Below the pieces are notes generated by a model. That model was not told where the DNA came from, searched no databases, and saw only the letters and a program-made list of their open reading frames with translations. DNA of 64,000 bases from Alphaproteobacteria bacterium (GTDB lineage Bacteria; Pseudomonadota; Alphaproteobacteria; Rs-D84), in assembly GCA_017463185.1 (NCBI GenBank), contig JAFTPS010000008.1:62001-126000 (forward strand), read 5' to 3'. A program made the translations under genes and the position numbers. Shown in pieces: positions 1,040-61,219 of the stretch. Every line of letters starts with the position of its first letter. Within the stretch, counting starts at the first letter, position 1.

Positions 1040-1282
1040 TGAATCCAATGGGAATTGGGTTCGGGGCTGTCGTAGGCCTAATCACATCCGGTGCAGAATA
1101 AAGGCGCGTCGTAAATCCGATATGCTTCCTGTGGTTTTGCATCGTTATTTTTCCCTGGCTGTAAAAGCAGTCGGGGGGCTGTTCGCTATACAACAGGGCT
1201 GGCCCGAAAGCGACGGAATCAACGATGTGATGATTTACGAACTCCCCGACCGCCTGAATTTCCACGGCGGTTTATTTTTTTT
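1040..1282 (+). ncRNA. Candidate structured leader RNA / attenuator, copy A
   Basis: This is the first of four related structured RNAs (see also 23427, 43179 and 61219). A promoter precedes it: TTGCAT at 1004-1009, 18-bp spacer, TATAAT at 1028-1033. A small 5' hairpin is CCAAT/ATTGG around 1044-1057. Closing stem P1 pairs 1061-1074 with 1236-1249, with a CTG/ACT internal loop. P2 pairs ATCACATC (1081-1088) with GATGTGAT (1224-1231). P3 pairs CGGTGC (1089-1094) with GCATCG (1139-1144). P4 is 1153-1161/1168-1176. P5 has TCGC/GCGA (1183-1186/1210-1213) around an ACAACAGGGC loop stem. The terminator is ACCGCC 1249-1254 / GGCGGT 1266-1271 plus a T-run. GTCGGGGGG (1170-1178) can alternatively pair with CTCCCCGAC (1242-1250), overlapping P1 and the terminator arm. 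The exported-protein gene starts 16 bases downstream. No known class was recognised. Confidence 0.75.
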
Positions 1283-1298: not shown

Positions 1299-2234
1299 AT
1301 GCGAACTGCGTTTATTTTGACTTTATTGCTGGGGATTGAACACGCATATGCGGTATCCGATTTGAACACGGCAATTGAAAATGTACGCAATTCATGTGAT
1401 GGAATATCGGGTGAATTAAATCACCTGAAAACAATAGCGGGAATAAACACCGCCGTGACGGGTGTCGGCACGGTCGCTGGTGGCGTTGCACTGGGTACCG
1501 GTATCGCAAAAGCAAAAGTGGATAAAGAAGCCGCTGAAAATGAAGAACTTATCGCAGCACTGGAAGACGCGGGTGCGGTTCGTATTACCAGCCTGGATAT
1601 GTTTTATGAAACTTTTGCGGATACATTAGATGAAACAAACACTGCCCAGGGAAAGTTATATGCCACACAATTACGCACCAAGAAAAGTAAATTAGACAAA
1701 AAATCCAAAAACCTGGGGAATTGGCGTACGGGTATGCTAGCCACCAGTACCGCAACAAATATCGCGGGCGTGATTATTGCCGGAAACAATCGGGAAAAAG
1801 GCGATTTGAAATCACAAATTGATAATTGCCTGGCGGCGGTAAAGGTGCTTAGCAATGTACGGATGCAGGCACGAATTTCCAAAACGGCAACGGATGTGGA
1901 ACTGGCACGGGCCGAGGCGATTGTTCGCGCATGCGATGCGTGGTCCACGGTGGATATCAGCAGCATAAACAACAAATCCACAGGCGCGGCGGTATCCAGT
2001 GGGGTTGGTGTGGCAACTGGCCTGGCGGGAACAATAGTATCCTCATCAGCAAATTCGGACAAAGTGCGCGACGGGGACAAGGATAAAGAAAAAAATCTGA
2101 ATACGGCGGCGAATGTATTGGCGGGTGGGACAACCGCGGCCAGTTTGACCGCCACAATATTTAACGCAACACAAATAGGTGCAATAAAACGTGCGGCAAC
2201 GGTTGCCGATGAATGCGAGGGGGCACTGAGATAA
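1299..2234 (+). CDS. Exported protein with glycine-rich hydrophobic segments, unknown function
   Basis: The protein has 311 residues with a signal peptide (MRTAFILTLLLGIEHAYA, likely cleaved after AYA). The mature part carries four Gly/Ala/Val-rich hydrophobic stretches (roughly residues 50-70, 150-165, 225-245 and 265-285) separated by charged, partly coiled-coil segments. This could mean membrane insertion or self-association. I do not recognise a family. ATG 1299 is chosen over upstream in-frame starts because AGGGG precedes it and the signal peptide begins there; upstream starts would run through leader RNA copy A. The next gene begins 1 base after the stop. Confidence 0.7.
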   Translation: MRTAFILTLLLGIEHAYAVSDLNTAIENVRNSCDGISGELNHLKTIAGINTAVTGVGTVAGGVALGTGIAKAKVDKEAAENEELIAALEDAGAVRITSLDMFYETFADTLDETNTAQGKLYATQLRTKKSKLDKKSKNLGNWRTGMLATSTATNIAGVIIAGNNREKGDLKSQIDNCLAAVKVLSNVRMQARISKTATDVELARAEAIVRACDAWSTVDISSINNKSTGAAVSSGVGVATGLAGTIVSSSANSDKVRDGDKDKEKNLNTAANVLAGGTTAASLTATIFNATQIGAIKRAATVADECEGALR

Positions 2235-23426: not shown

Positions 23427-23657
23427 GGATTTCAAAAGTAAGAGAAGTCTGGGACTTAGAAACTCCCGATATAACAATCCGGTGCGGTTTGCATCGTTAA
23501 AATTCGGCGCAATCGCACCGTTTTTGTTCCCGGCATTGGGTCGGGAAGCCTTTGGTTATAGAACAAGGGATTTTCCCGAAAGGCCAAAAGGGCTCATCTG
23601 ATTGTTATGAGGTTTCTAACTTCCCGGCCGCCACAGATTTACTGGCGGCGTTTTTCT
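23427..23657 (+). ncRNA. Candidate structured leader RNA / attenuator, copy B
   Basis: The promoter is TTGACT 23392-23397, a 17-bp spacer and TATGAT 23415-23420. P1 pairs 23451-23463 with 23612-23625. P2 pairs ATAACAATC (23471-23479) with GATTGTTAT (23600-23608). P3 pairs CGGTGCG (23480-23486) with CGCACCG (23514-23520). P4 is TTCCCG/CGGGAA (23527-23532/23542-23547). P5 contains GAACAAGGGATTTTCCCGAAA. The terminator is GCCGCCA/TGGCGGC (23627-23633/23643-23649) plus T-run. GGTCGGGAAG (23539-23548) can alternatively pair over 10 bp with CTTCCCGGCC (23620-23629), breaking the terminator. The glycosyltransferase start at 23789 lies 131 bases further, after another inverted repeat. Confidence 0.75.
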
Positions 23658-23788
23658 TAGATTCTGGAACCCGAACCCTGTCCCAGTAATGGGTGGGCGC
23701 ATACGCCATATACCGAAAGCGTGTGGAATTGGAAATGTACATTTTCCAATTGTTTGAACGCCCATCCAAAAGTTATAAGGAAACCCAT

Positions 23789-24667
23789 ATGCCGAAAGTA
23801 TCTATTGTATTGCCTGTTTATAACGGGGAACGATTTCTTGAACAAAGTTTAGACTCTATACTAAATCAAACTTTTTCCGATTGGGAATTAGTTATTGTAA
23901 ATGATTGTAGCAAAGATAAAACCCCAAAAATTGCAGACCAGTATGCACAAAAGGATGGCAGAATTAGGGTTATTCATAATAAGGTAAATAAAAAATTACC
24001 CGCCTCATTAAATGTTGGTTTTGCACAAACCACAGGCGAATATTTAACTTGGACTAGTGATGACAATATTGCAAAAACTAACTGGCTGGACACATTAGTA
24101 AAATATTTAGACGAACATCCGAATGCAGATATGGTTTCCGCGAGCATGGAACGAATCAATGAAGATGGGAGTATTTTTGACCTGCCACCCGCTAAGGACG
24201 ATAGAAAAGTTATAGATTTGGCATATCGTTGTAATGTTGGTGCTGCTTTTATGTATCGCCGCAGTATTGCCGATATAGTTGGCGAATATGATACAAATAC
24301 ATTTTGTGCAGAGGATTATGATTATTGGTGTCGTATTGCCTTGGCTGGTGAATTACATTATTTGGCCGATAATATATATTCATATCGTATAAATTCAGCA
24401 TCTTTAACTGCGACCCAACAACCACGAATATTACAAAAAAAATCAGACATCCAGAAAAAATACCGAACAGCTTTTATTGATAAATTTAATATGGGCTATA
24501 TAAAGCGAGCCATATTGTCTTATCTGTCTGTTGAACGCAAATGGTCGCCTATGTTCATTGTTTTTGACACATATAAATTTATTCTGCGCCAGGCCACAAA
24601 CATTCTGTTGTTCTGGAATACCACTCTACGCAAAAGAGTTTTTCAATCACTAACAATTAAATTATAA
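23789..24667 (+). CDS. Family 2 glycosyltransferase
   Basis: The 292-residue GT-A enzyme starts KVSIVLPVYNGERFLEQSLDS and has the nucleotide-binding VNDCSKDKT, the metal-binding TSDDN (DxD equivalent) near residue 93 and the acceptor-side AEDYDYWCR motif. It transfers a sugar from a nucleotide sugar onto a surface glycan, probably on a lipid carrier at the membrane. ATG 23789 follows AAGGAAA at 8 bases; the longer frame from 23693 overlaps leader sequence. It heads a three-gene glycan cluster behind leader RNA copy B. Confidence 0.85.
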   Translation: MPKVSIVLPVYNGERFLEQSLDSILNQTFSDWELVIVNDCSKDKTPKIADQYAQKDGRIRVIHNKVNKKLPASLNVGFAQTTGEYLTWTSDDNIAKTNWLDTLVKYLDEHPNADMVSASMERINEDGSIFDLPPAKDDRKVIDLAYRCNVGAAFMYRRSIADIVGEYDTNTFCAEDYDYWCRIALAGELHYLADNIYSYRINSASLTATQQPRILQKKSDIQKKYRTAFIDKFNMGYIKRAILSYLSVERKWSPMFIVFDTYKFILRQATNILLFWNTTLRKRVFQSLTIKL

Positions 24668-43178: not shown

Positions 43179-43430
43179 TGAATCAACAGGGATGTTGACT
43201 CAGGGACCTAGAAAATCCCGTAATAGTGCGATGCGTAATGCTGTTGCGCATTGAATCCGACAAATAAAAAATGTCGGCGACCATTGGCGCGCCGTATATT
43301 TTTGTTTCCCGACTGAATATATCGGTCGGGGGTCCGTGATTATACAACAGGGCTCGCCCGAAAATCGCGGGGTCATTTCACTATTATGATTTTTCTAATC
43401 CCCGACCGTCAAATCCTTTGACGGTTTTTG
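43179..43430 (+). ncRNA. Candidate structured leader RNA / attenuator, copy C
   Basis: The promoter is TTGATT 43144-43149, 17 bases, TAACAT 43167-43172. A 5' hairpin is TCAAC/GTTGA. P1 pairs 43203-43215 with 43391-43403. P2 pairs TAATAGTG (43221-43228) with CACTATTA (43379-43386). P3 pairs CGATGCG (43229-43235) with CGCATTG (43247-43253); an additional CCGACA/TGTCGG hairpin follows. P4 is CCCGAC/GTCGGG (43308-43313/43325-43330). P5 is CCGTGAT/ATCGCGG around ATACAACAGGGC. The terminator is ACCGTCAAA/TTTGACGGT (43405-43413/43417-43425). CGGTCGGGGG (43323-43332) can pair over 10 bp with 43399-43408, disrupting it. The coding start is 22 bases downstream. Confidence 0.75.
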
Positions 43431-43452
43431 TTTAACAAAAAAAGGGAAAGGA

Positions 43453-44184
43453 ATGAAAATCAGAAATTTATTGTTGGCATCGTGCGTGATGTGCGCCGTG
43501 CCTAGATTGGTAAACGCCTGGTCAACCACTGATATATCCAAGGTTAAATCAGCATATGCCACAATTTTAACTAATTGCAAATCCAATTGCAGTTCGTCCT
43601 GTATTGCGATTACGGCCGTGTCAAATGGATACGGCACATATAATACAATATTACAAGGCAGTTCTGGCGGAATATGCAGATGTGTCATGGCGGGATACAG
43701 TGCCGATAACTGCGAAGAGATTAAACGCATAACCTGTACAAATGATACACAAGCCTCAACAATAATTGGCACAACAAACCTGTGGTACACACGCACATGG
43801 AACAGTTCCACCAGCACATGTAACACCACCAGTAAATTTTATTGTAAATCCGGATATTATGGAACCGCCACGGGTGCAAACGCCGGATGCAGTGTATGCC
43901 CCGGCAATGCAACCTGTCCCGGTGATAAAGAACAAAGCAATGTTTATTGTAATAAAGGATATGTGGCAATTACCACCAGTTCTGTTGGATCAGGATGTCG
44001 TACATGTAGCGTCACCGGTGCATATACGGACAGCGCGTTGACCACCGCCGCCGTGGCAACGACAGCGGGGTTGACCCTGTTGACACAGGCGACTAATGCC
44101 GCGTCCTGCTATTTGCCGGCGGGTACATATTATGACTCAACGGGTCAATTTACAATTACCCAGGACCAGGTATGCTATTATTAA
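43453..44184 (+). CDS. Exported cysteine-rich surface protein
   Basis: The 243-residue precursor has a signal peptide (RNLLLASCVMCAVPRLVNA). The mature protein is Thr/Ser- and Cys-rich with motifs such as SGYYGTATGANAGCSVCPGNATCPGD, resembling the GCC2/GCC3 (ephrin-receptor-like) and EGF-like Cys-rich modules of surface proteins. Function is unknown, with adhesion or host contact possible. AAAGGGAAAGG precedes ATG 43453, 22 bases after the leader RNA C terminator. Confidence 0.65.
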   Translation: MKIRNLLLASCVMCAVPRLVNAWSTTDISKVKSAYATILTNCKSNCSSSCIAITAVSNGYGTYNTILQGSSGGICRCVMAGYSADNCEEIKRITCTNDTQASTIIGTTNLWYTRTWNSSTSTCNTTSKFYCKSGYYGTATGANAGCSVCPGNATCPGDKEQSNVYCNKGYVAITTSSVGSGCRTCSVTGAYTDSALTTAAVATTAGLTLLTQATNAASCYLPAGTYYDSTGQFTITQDQVCYY

Positions 44185-59600: not shown

Positions 59601-60749
59601 TATCGAATCTCTTCTTTGGCGACATCCTGCGCTGGTCCAATTTGTATACCCAGGTTCACAAATACAATTTGAGCCATCACTGTACGCATGGGGTCCACAA
59701 TTTGATAAGTCATGACAGCCAACCTCAGATTTCCAATTCCCATATCCTGAGACACATATGCATTTAGTTTCAGACCAATTAGCGTTTGCACCACATTGTA
59801 TTGGTTCGCACTCTTTATAAACCACATCACCAGATTGACAGGTGTTCCCTGTTTCTTGATACATGCCTGTGCAAGAAGTGGTATTATACGAGCAATCTGC
59901 AGGTGTGTCACATAAATATTCTGTCCAACCGTTTTCACAAGAACAGCTATCTGTGACTTGAGAGCCATGCACACAATTTAATTTCTGATACACTTGCCCA
60001 TTCTGCTCAATATAATTATCACTGTCTAATACACATTGCACATATATTTTATCGCCAGATTGGCATGTGGCACCTGTTGCAACATACCCATATGCACACG
60101 AGACGGTCGTATAAGGACACACCTCTGGCACATCACAATTTTTACCACTCCACCCAGCATCACAAACGCATCCCTGTTCAGACCAAACGCCATGCGCACC
60201 ACACTTAATCGGTTCGCACTCTTTATAAACCACATCACCTGATTGACAAACATTTCCTGTTTCTTGATACGCCCCAGAACACGATGTTGTTTGATAATCA
60301 CAAGTTGATTGCACACAGCGTTTATAAACAGTTGTCCCAGACAAACATATGTCACCTAAAACTTCATCATAACCTGCACCACATTCTTTATGATAATCAG
60401 CCGAGCATGTTTGCGCCACATCGCACTTAAACCATACGCCCGTTCCATCATCAACATTACAATAGTCTGCGCTATTTTTTACCCATCCATCTGGACACGA
60501 ATCTGAATAGCCATATAAATATCCGCGCTCCCTACAGGATGCATTCTGGTTTTGATTCGCTTCGAGCTTGTTATCATCATCGCTTGAGCCACTTCCTCCC
60601 GACATAGTAACAGCACTACCGACAACAACGGCTGCACCAACACCAGCCAATGACCACTTACTAAGCTCGAATAGAGACCATGGTTTACTTGCTGTCACTA
60701 CTTTTTGAATAAAGGCTTGATATTGTTCTGCAGGTATTTTTTTATACAT
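56649..60749 (-). CDS. Large autotransporter with EGF-like Cys-rich head and YGMYG repeats
   Basis: The 1366-residue protein has an N-terminal helix plus hydrophobic segment (WSLAGVGAAVVVGSAV) as export signal. A Cys-rich, EGF-like region (about 70-385) follows, with duplicated blocks such as ETGNVCQSGDVVYKECEPI and CVCDAGWSGKNCD. A passenger of about 600 residues has roughly a dozen repeats centred on GNVYGMYG or GNAYGMY with N-rich beta strands. The C-terminal autotransporter barrel (about 1085-1366) ends in ...LKAGIRFAF, with the terminal Phe that BamA recognises. The start overlaps the end of the ankyrin-like gene by 52 bases. It is likely a surface adhesin. Confidence 0.85.
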   Translation of the reverse strand: MYKKIPAEQYQAFIQKVVTASKPWSLFELSKWSLAGVGAAVVVGSAVTMSGGSGSSDDDNKLEANQNQNASCRERGYLYGYSDSCPDGWVKNSADYCNVDDGTGVWFKCDVAQTCSADYHKECGAGYDEVLGDICLSGTTVYKRCVQSTCDYQTTSCSGAYQETGNVCQSGDVVYKECEPIKCGAHGVWSEQGCVCDAGWSGKNCDVPEVCPYTTVSCAYGYVATGATCQSGDKIYVQCVLDSDNYIEQNGQVYQKLNCVHGSQVTDSCSCENGWTEYLCDTPADCSYNTTSCTGMYQETGNTCQSGDVVYKECEPIQCGANANWSETKCICVSGYGNWKSEVGCHDLSNCGPHAYSDGSNCICEPGYTNWTSAGCRQRRDSIVINNSTSEEDIVGISNSSQSSYYSIVNINNSTDSNVTAILIDDVQNGGWPVSIGNNRIIYIKNSGDGDVVGVKHTNNLGELTANSSDSENLASGGGITISNIGNGDVYGIYNSMADVSADTPSFSVNSYVNYNNRTHGGESFRPIATIDINNMGDGNVYGMWGPHLRNTHVSNVLSSVEHDYFSGVYAKINIVNNGAGNAYGMYVISSGDYYGSIYDSVNAEYGTGDITIKNVAEGNAFGMFSGSDSTYNAYNGHLQMRANGNINITNDSSGNVYGMYGDKIYNAYSAGNNTSRPEEANGQIVISNNSIGNAYGMYTTSGLAVNASRNGSGSIKILNKGSGAAYGMFGANIENECWDGYCIGAVNANIDLINYVNGNVYGMYGTTMAENGKQGTANSNINIQNLGTGNAYGMVTNSGSITNGGIININNIGGGIAVGMYGGEGSVIDNFGEINITQNLYVDTDGTLYEPAMNANSKAFGIYAKSGSVVTNYGAINIAADGEAYGIYAESGSTVYNYQDAVITATITLNGDVCSGADCNTGNYIVLNGSTLVNAGTMSADTLSLNSMGGTVRAAAGSRFVATDAITGDLNISSELVSSGNQTTYVAENMIDAGDVSGLNLVSESALFNARLASNGHDVVMTMRGFDEFTDNKSLAAFLERNYATGNNTDLFGDLKSIGTNAAFMGALNGFSGLGAFNQFANEDLAAMREMNFSMNEQLFETSGRDDVDISGGVNYFSFSNQSGVGSGSYGLSIDRISDKWKMGYGISMANISTGNDDGINRQNTIGLFYMPMTYTDSGYEVIVNPKMGFARSEYNRQGFNNMSYEGYIEKRIFGLMNDIRYPLTFGNWTVAPNLGLNTIVYNQSGHEENKMYGLIIPDSNLVSVEAGLGLYAKYDRTLADNSRLSFNTGLMAYREFGDCYNIELGIRGMDGTFNLYDDNLYDYRGAATIGFKYDSGRLNLYGNAQYFTDSDSYMNLKAGIRFAF

Positions 60750-60991
60750 TTGTGTTCTGTATTTGCACCGGTTTCTTTTAATAAATTATACGCATCAACA
60801 TCGCCATCTTTAATTGCGGAACACAGTGCGGTATTTCCAGTTGAGTCAACGACATCAATGCTTTCAATCTTTTTTAATTCTGTTGTGCTTTTGCTTTGGG
60901 CCAACAAATAAATATCTGTTGTGTTATATGCCGCTAAACCAGTTGTGCACATCCCAAAAAAACACAAAAAATACAATAAAAATTTTTTCAT
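60698..60991 (-). CDS. Small exported ankyrin-repeat-like protein
   Basis: The 97-residue precursor has a signal peptide (MKKFLLYFLCFFGMCTTGLA). Its mature part contains one to two ankyrin-like repeats (VVDSTGNTALCSAIKDGDVDAYNLLKETGAN). ATG 60991 is chosen because the signal begins there. The gene starts 17 bases after the terminator of leader RNA D and its 3' end overlaps the autotransporter start, so both surface genes should be read from the RNA D promoter. Confidence 0.7.
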   Translation of the reverse strand: MKKFLLYFLCFFGMCTTGLAAYNTTDIYLLAQSKSTTELKKIESIDVVDSTGNTALCSAIKDGDVDAYNLLKETGANTEHKCIKKYLQNNIKPLFKK

Positions 60992-61008
60992 AGGTCGCCC
61001 CCACATAA

Positions 61009-61219
61009 TAAAAAGACCGCCATGGGAATTAGGCGGCTGGGAGTTTGCAAATCACTTCATTACTGATTCTGTGGTCTTTATATATACACCAACAGCCCCC
61101 AGCCATAACAGCTAGGGATGATAACGATGCAAAAAGCACCGAATACATCAGATTACGATGCTTTCGCACCGAATGAAGTAGGCTTGCAACAGCCCAAAAT
61201 CCAATTCCCATTGGATTCA
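61009..61219 (-). ncRNA. Candidate structured leader RNA / attenuator, copy D
   Basis: Minus-strand promoter: TTGATT (61254-61249), 17 bases, TAGAAT (61231-61226). The 5' hairpin CCAAT/ATTGG (61214-61201) is identical to copy A. P1 joins 61196-61184 to 61050-61038 with the same CTG/ACT internal loop as copy A. P2 joins ACTTCATT (61179-61172) to AATGAAGT (61061-61054). P3 joins CGGTGC (61171-61166) to GCATCG (61130-61125). P4 is 61117-61111/about 61104-61096. P5 is a shorter variant lacking the ACAACAGGG motif. The terminator CCGCC/GGCGG (61036-61017) ends at about 61009. GGCTGGGGG (61104-61096) can pair over 9 bp with CTCCCAGCC (61043-61035). The ankyrin-like gene starts 17 bases downstream. 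Confidence 0.75.

Follow-up and report, generated by a model that had tools for sequence, protein, structure and literature searches.

C4-like leader RNAs whose terminator overlaps the closing stem precede about 56 genes of an alphaproteobacterial genome

C4 is the type of antisense RNA directed by phages P1 and P7 against their antirepressor gene. In the phage P1 record, a1, b1, c4, a2 and b2 are annotated in this order before icd-ant, and Rfam recognises both c4-a1b1 and C4 there, with its isrK model overlapping a1b1 and the early hairpin (in our P1 locus L370, the isrK model overlaps a1b1 and the early terminator at 2231-2312). In the P1 sequence, a1 lies in a hairpin loop and is followed by b1, a hairpin with a U-run and a P4-like hairpin (ACGCCC..GGGCGT), after which comes the closing stem of C4, with b′ in the loop of the last hairpin and a′ adjoining the 3′ arm of the stem. 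RNase P cuts C4 at this closing stem, and b′ blocks a ribosome-binding site (PMC5320573). Two further phage RNAs work through early termination: in the phage P4 CI RNA, antisense pairing with seqA and seqC leads to premature termination, and IsrK, which is terminated at its T1, targets the read-through RNA in trans (PMC4825925). C4-derived RNAs are also found in many copies in one genome, as in the Group 1 C4-like sRNAs of Acinetobacter baumannii, for which processing at the closing stem was inferred from read coverage (PMC5320573). Finally, sRNA-Xcc1 as isolated is 88 nt long, and its ends have been mapped (PMC2996969); Rfam, where it is family RF02221, known from Xanthomonas integrons and numerous phages of proteobacteria, lists no clan for it.

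The DNA analysed here (the window, 64,000 nucleotides) is part of a 1.04 Mb genome in 15 contigs and holds four leader RNAs, copies A to D, whose strands a′ and b′ we name as in phage P1. Copy A, on the forward strand, is preceded by the -10 box TATAAT (1028-1033), 6 nt 5′ of the leader; all 24 hand-anchored copies have, directly 5′ of the leader, a -10-like hexamer with no more than 2 mismatches. The RNA 5′ end is formed by hairpin H1 (GAATCC..GGGTTC, 1041-1062, placed by alignment of the copies), followed by hairpin H2 (1065-1078), whose loop a1 (TCGTA, 1070-1074) pairs with a′ (TACGA, 1236-1240), and by b1 (ATCACATC, 1081-1088), whose partner is b′ (GATGTGAT, 1224-1231). Then come the P4 hairpin (1153-1176, arms 1153-1161 and 1168-1176) and, overlapping its 3′ arm, the 5′ arm of a helix that we call P1x (1170-1178), which was described in the initial annotation as the alternative helix and corresponds to the closing stem of a C4-type core. 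The interior of this core (1179-1235, defined by its match to RF02221) consists of P2 (UAUACAACAGGG..CCCGAAAG) and then P3 with b′ in its loop. The P1x 3′ arm (CTCCCCGACC, 1242-1251) runs into the intrinsic terminator T2 (1249-1283; ACCGCC at 1249-1254 with GGCGGT at 1266-1271, then U-rich), so that ACC is common to both.

The other leaders have the same order, namely a hairpin with the a1 loop, b1, a hairpin, P4 and the C4 core with b′ and a′. Copy B (23428-23658, forward strand, 80 bits with our covariance model R1) has a1 at 23456-23465, b1 at 23471-23479, P4 at 23527-23547, b′ at 23600-23608, a′ at 23609-23619, P1x at 23539-23548 and 23620-23629 and T2 at 23627-23658. In copy C (43179-43433, forward strand, 98 bits with R1 and 45.7 bits with RF02221), the corresponding positions are 43209-43215 (a1), 43221-43228 (b1), 43308-43330 (P4), 43379-43386 (b′), 43391-43397 (a′), 43323-43332 with 43399-43408 (P1x) and 43405-43433 (T2). 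Copy D lies on the reverse strand (61007-61219, 57 bits with R1), with a1 at 61189-61184, b1 at 61179-61172, P4 at 61117-61097, b′ at 61061-61054, a′ at 61050-61045, P1x at 61104-61096 and 61043-61035 and T2 at 61037-61007. The helix that had earlier been drawn as P1 does exist as pairing, although as two long-range interactions, a1:a′ and b1:b′, rather than one helix; a1:a′ joins the loop of the second 5′ hairpin to the strand just 5′ of the P1x 3′ arm.

Used as a DNA query, copy A finds many related places in the same genome. The model R1, built from 24 copies of this genome, matches about 56 copies in it (34-106 bits), which we read as stretches around the matches; the four leaders first described are real copies and a small part of the family. 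Of 99 related genomes, 75 have R1 copies, most of them in the same genus, and at least one copy is present in 24 of 289 genomes drawn evenly from the class. The copies fall into two subfamilies. Subfamily I carries UAUACAACAGGG..CCCGAAAG in P2 and includes window copies A, B and C, with D as a shortened form; subfamily II usually has the closing stem GGUCAGGAGG..CCUCCUGACC and a different P2 loop, and a search for it in viral contigs found none.

Re-reading of the sequence bears out the alternative pairing first proposed for each window leader: GTCGGGGGG (1170-1178) with CTCCCCGAC (1242-1250) in copy A, 9 bp with one G-U; GGTCGGGAAG (23539-23548) with CTTCCCGGCC (23620-23629) in copy B and CGGTCGGGGG (43323-43332) with TCCCCGACCG (43399-43408) in copy C, each 10 bp with one G-U; and GGCTGGGGG (61104-61096) with CTCCCAGCC (61043-61035) in copy D, 9 bp with no G-U. 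P4 and the terminator are likewise present in all four. Across the 56 copies of this genome, the P1x arms pair with their own partner at a mean of -18.6 kcal/mol, compared with -15.2 kcal/mol when partners are swapped within the subfamily (z = -10.5, 0 of 5000 permutations as low), in a test that shuffles partners within subfamilies and involves no fitting to the covariance model. P1x is 94% paired in 24 of these copies, with double substitutions in 5 of 10 pairs, and 97.4% paired in 62 copies from other genomes, where 8 of 10 pairs are doubly substituted and where covariation between alignment columns lends support to the closing stem, P2, P3 and the terminator, the alignment of these 62 copies being fitted to the model. 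Furthermore, in 24 genus relatives the same own-versus-swapped comparison gives z = -7.6 for P1x, -4.1 for a′ and -7.2 for b′. Chance complementarity of the P1x arms is rejected by the permutation result (z = -10.5) and by the covariation in other genomes. A role of the P1x 3′ arm as an anti-Shine-Dalgarno sequence was also considered and dropped, the signal being weak in this genome (z = -2.9) and failing to recur in the genus relatives (z = -0.8).

P4 forms a stem of at least 5 bp in all 56 copies and is itself supported by own-versus-swapped pairing (z = -6.4, 0 of 5000 permutations as low), more weakly in subfamily I (-2.7). Directly 3′ of the closing stem lies T2, an intrinsic terminator found in 56 of 56 copies, whose 5′ arm consists of the last 3-4 nt of the closing stem, the next purine and two pyrimidines. 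T2 and P1x share 3-4 nt in 55 of the 56 copies, and the mean T2 energy of -11.3 kcal/mol falls to -4.3 kcal/mol once P1x holds the common bases. Together, the competition of P4 and P1x for one strand and the overlap with T2 across the copies make the switch geometry genuine and recurrent in this genome; regulated read-through itself is predicted. With only 3-4 bp in common, P1x and a 6-bp terminator could nearly coexist. Nested folding, which leaves pseudoknots aside, places the P4 state lower by 9.2 kcal/mol on average over all 56 copies and favours it in 46 of them, a calculation outside which pseudoknots and co-transcriptional folding lie and which leaves the state in the cell undecided. 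A further early hairpin with a U-run, T1, is called between b1 and P4 in 40 of the 56 copies and in 26 of 34 phage-type loci.

The mutually exclusive switch of the initial annotation thus stands in its geometry, with P4 and P1x competing for one strand and P1x weakening T2, but not in the reason given for its conservation, which was antitermination. In agreement with what had been claimed, no homologue that keeps P4 and the terminator but loses P1x was found among 60 relative copies. However, a terminator follows the closing stem in only 3 of 34 phage-type sRNA-Xcc1 loci, compared with 56 of 56 copies here, and P1x is present with no abutting terminator in two loci of a class relative (L230 and L241) and in the c4 gene of phage P1. 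In such terminator-less loci P1x closes the core of a C4 antisense RNA, and selection on it is therefore independent of the terminator; conservation of P1x as proof of antitermination is rejected, as phage-type loci keep P1x and lack T2. Judged from these comparisons, P1x is best read as the stem that closes a C4-type antisense RNA and not primarily as an antiterminator. The loci L230 and L241 (genome G091) are of phage type, with a2/b2-like strings before a Rha/antirepressor-like gene. In another genome (G072), copies repeated in one contig (L245) keep the closing stem and the following GCC, with the terminator undetected; they are possibly an intermediate between the phage type and the terminator type.

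The arrangement resembles classical intrinsic attenuators, such as the leaders of amino acid operons, in having three competing strands and a terminator before a gene, but no leader peptide was identified, and the second strand is part of a conserved independent RNA fold. A plain attenuator acting in cis, with P4 and P1x only deciding whether T2 forms, no action in trans, and the likeness to C4 reflecting a common fold, would account for the full exclusivity of P4 and P1x, the shared nucleotides and constant presence of T2, its weakening by about 7 kcal/mol when P1x holds the bases, and the absence of detectable a2/b2 within 130 nt downstream. Such a device would, however, need neither private a1:a′ and b1:b′ addresses nor the full P1-like order of parts, and P1x is also kept in phage-type loci that have no terminator; we regard it as unlikely.

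The kinship to C4 is seen in the architecture. From H1 through a′, the parts of the window leaders follow one another as in C4 of P1 and P7 (RF01695) together with c4-a1b1 (RF03163), and IsrK, c4-a1b1 and the 5′ half of the leaders look, from the overlap of the isrK model in P1, like one element. Unlike C4 of P1 and P7, the leaders have a larger P2 with a conserved internal loop, an intrinsic terminator overlapping the closing stem, about 56 copies, and genes for exported proteins rather than antirepressors; they also show no a2/b2 at the ribosome-binding site, and RF01695 has no match in this genome at E <= 10. Copy A matches sRNA-Xcc1 (RF02221) at 1170-1258 with 30.7 bits, end to end over model positions 1-87, and the outer stem of the model is exactly P1x. 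The leaders align with it over its full length, including the closing stem, the AUACAA internal loop, the third hairpin and the a′ spacer. There are 14 such matches in this genome, all covering positions 1-87 (best 47.3-47.6 bits); copies of this genome score 24-48 bits, and none reaches the gathering cut-off of 53 bits. The kinship with C4 therefore rests on architecture and on sub-threshold scores. With no a2b2, no RF01695 score, no antirepressor gene and RF02221 scores below the cut-off, we treat the leaders as a variant that would work like C4, not as a member of the family.

The RF02221 core itself occurs in at least 120 stretches of genomes, mostly proteobacterial, and at least 120 in viral contigs. 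At these loci, the sequence 5′ of the Rfam model holds the same 5′ half (a1b1) as the window leaders, and many repeat both target strings at the ribosome-binding site of the next gene, the next genes including the Bro-N, ORF6N, P22_AR_N, AntA, pRha-like and SymE families (loci L100-L179, for example, have a1b1 upstream, a2b2 at the next ribosome-binding site and an antirepressor or SymE gene). P4 is weakly supported in these loci (z = -2.0), and phage P1 has one. Rfam sRNA-Xcc1 thus looks, from its sequence context, like the central part of a longer C4-type leader; its loci differ from our leaders in carrying a2/b2 and in mostly having no terminator after the stem.

The P2 internal loop (UAUACAACA..GAAAG) is among the best conserved sequence of the leaders, whose stems vary, and many of the associated genes have a similar destination, as might be expected if the loop bound a small molecule and biased P1x against P4 as a riboswitch. 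A similar loop, however, is also found at loci of phages, integrons and prophages where antirepressor and SymE genes follow and no common metabolite is expected; the loop of subfamily II differs; and copy A has no match to an Rfam riboswitch at E <= 10. A riboswitch is thus very improbable.

The a and b strands form addresses that are private to each copy. In the 56 copies, pairing with the 5′ domain is strongly own-specific for both a′ (z = -12.0) and b′ (z = -10.2; 0 of 5000 permutations in each case), the 56 copies have 56 distinct a/b combinations, and the combined a/b pairing has a mean of -17.7 kcal/mol with the own partner versus -8.3 kcal/mol with other copies; these orthogonality figures are probably underestimates, as the automatic a1/b1 locator takes the wrong hairpin in several of the copies. 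Within 130 nt downstream, the same 56 copies give no signal for a2 or b2 (z = -0.7 and +0.7), so that canonical translation control by a2/b2, on which the P1 mechanism centres, went undetected over this distance. By comparison, 28 non-redundant phage-type loci show both kinds of pairing, with z = -5.9 and -7.7 upstream and z = -2.0 and -5.1 downstream; downstream pairing is weak in the 24 genus relatives (z = -1.7 and -2.5). The family in this genome therefore kept a1b1 and shows no a2b2.

We consider it probable that in these leaders a C4-type module has become a self-addressed attenuator, repeated in front of about 56 genes, most of which encode exported proteins. The leader RNA would start from a sigma-70-type promoter; its 5′ part would carry the private targets a1 and b1, and T1 with its U-run could stop transcription there. 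The 3′ part would be the C4 core, with a′ and b′ strands that find a good match only in their own a1 and b1. In the precursor, pairing of a1b1 with a′b′ would go together with a P4 that holds the closing stem's 5′ arm and with formation of T2, leaving the gene off. In the alternative state, P1x would form, break P4 and take the last 3-4 nt of the T2 5′ arm, giving read-through, and possibly allowing RNase P to release the C4 core. Indeed, the three nucleotides after P1x are a purine and two pyrimidines in almost every copy of this genome and in most phage-type loci, which is compatible with RNase P cleavage. The P4 and P1x states would thus control read-through, with P1x as the element coupling C4 folding to transcription termination and hence to expression. 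Furthermore, the released C4 or the T1-terminated a1b1 RNA presumably acts back on its own locus, by analogy with C4, the P4 CI RNA and IsrK. As in IsrK of the Salmonella prophage Gifsy-1 and the CI RNA, there is an early terminator, and short and read-through RNAs would share complementary sequences (PMC4825925); those RNAs, however, are single loci for phage development or toxic phage genes and lack a large set of separately addressed copies. The A. baumannii Group 1 sRNAs are by description highly similar to one another, whereas the leaders end in terminators and carry private addresses.

C4-type RNAs, sRNA-Xcc1 and multicopy C4-like sRNAs are already known. In a literature search that covered few subscription papers, we found none linking sRNA-Xcc1 to C4 and none describing dozens of C4-type leaders that end in a terminator and stand before genes for exported proteins. 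We tentatively suggest that a phage-immunity RNA may have been domesticated and multiplied across this tiny genome into about 56 mutually insulated, self-addressed attenuators of exported proteins, each responding to its own transcript alone, through which surface genes could be switched independently. If so, an RNA for control of lysogeny can become a large host regulon, with one copy per about 18 kb of genome, and nature would have supplied a set of dozens of near-orthogonal RNA regulators. The results also suggest that sRNA-Xcc1, studied in plant pathogens as a trans-acting, virulence-linked sRNA, forms the core of a C4-type antirepressor/SymE leader, which opens another way to test its 'targets'.

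Downstream of copy A lies a gene (1299-2234, forward strand) for a 311-aa protein with a signal-like N-terminus and no Pfam family above the cut-off. Copies B and C, on the same strand, precede a family 2 glycosyltransferase (23789-24667; PF00535, E 3.3e-36) and a 243-aa cysteine-rich protein with a signal-like N-terminus (43453-44184), and copy D a small protein, also with a signal-like N-terminus (60698-60991, reverse strand). A hydrophobic N-terminus is found in 42 of 55 first downstream ORFs compared with 10 of 51 other ORFs of the window (Fisher p 3.5e-9), in support of the leaders standing mostly before genes for putatively exported proteins. Pfam matches above the cut-off (Chlamydia PMP repeat, OmpA, trypsin-like protease, Listeria-Bacteroides repeat, RgpF, two glycosyltransferases and one HTH protein) are largely of predicted surface type, and no antirepressor domain was found in 30 scanned downstream proteins.

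This strong bias toward exported proteins bears on whether the leaders could instead be free-standing sRNA genes with an ordinary terminator, their C4 part hitting unlinked targets and the downstream gene being expressed from elsewhere. The 88-nt sRNA-Xcc1 with its mapped ends (PMC2996969) and the multicopy C4-like sRNAs of Acinetobacter (PMC5320573) are precedents for such genes. In most copies, however, the start codon lies about 15-35 nt past the terminator, with a Shine-Dalgarno-like sequence present and little space for a separate promoter between the two. Furthermore, an exact search of this genome with the a/b address of copy V, the sole address searched genome-wide, found no second site. 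Free-standing sRNA genes therefore seem quite improbable, and attenuators addressed to their own locus remain our preferred reading.

Short, cysteine-rich, exported proteins with no Pfam family often lie downstream of the leaders (43453-44184 in the window; loci L021, L022, L029, L032 and L035) and are probably an undescribed set of surface proteins. At one locus of this genome (L069, C1:34539-34891), two leaders stand in tandem before one RgpF-like gene, with the terminator that ends the first lying about 115 nt upstream of the second core.
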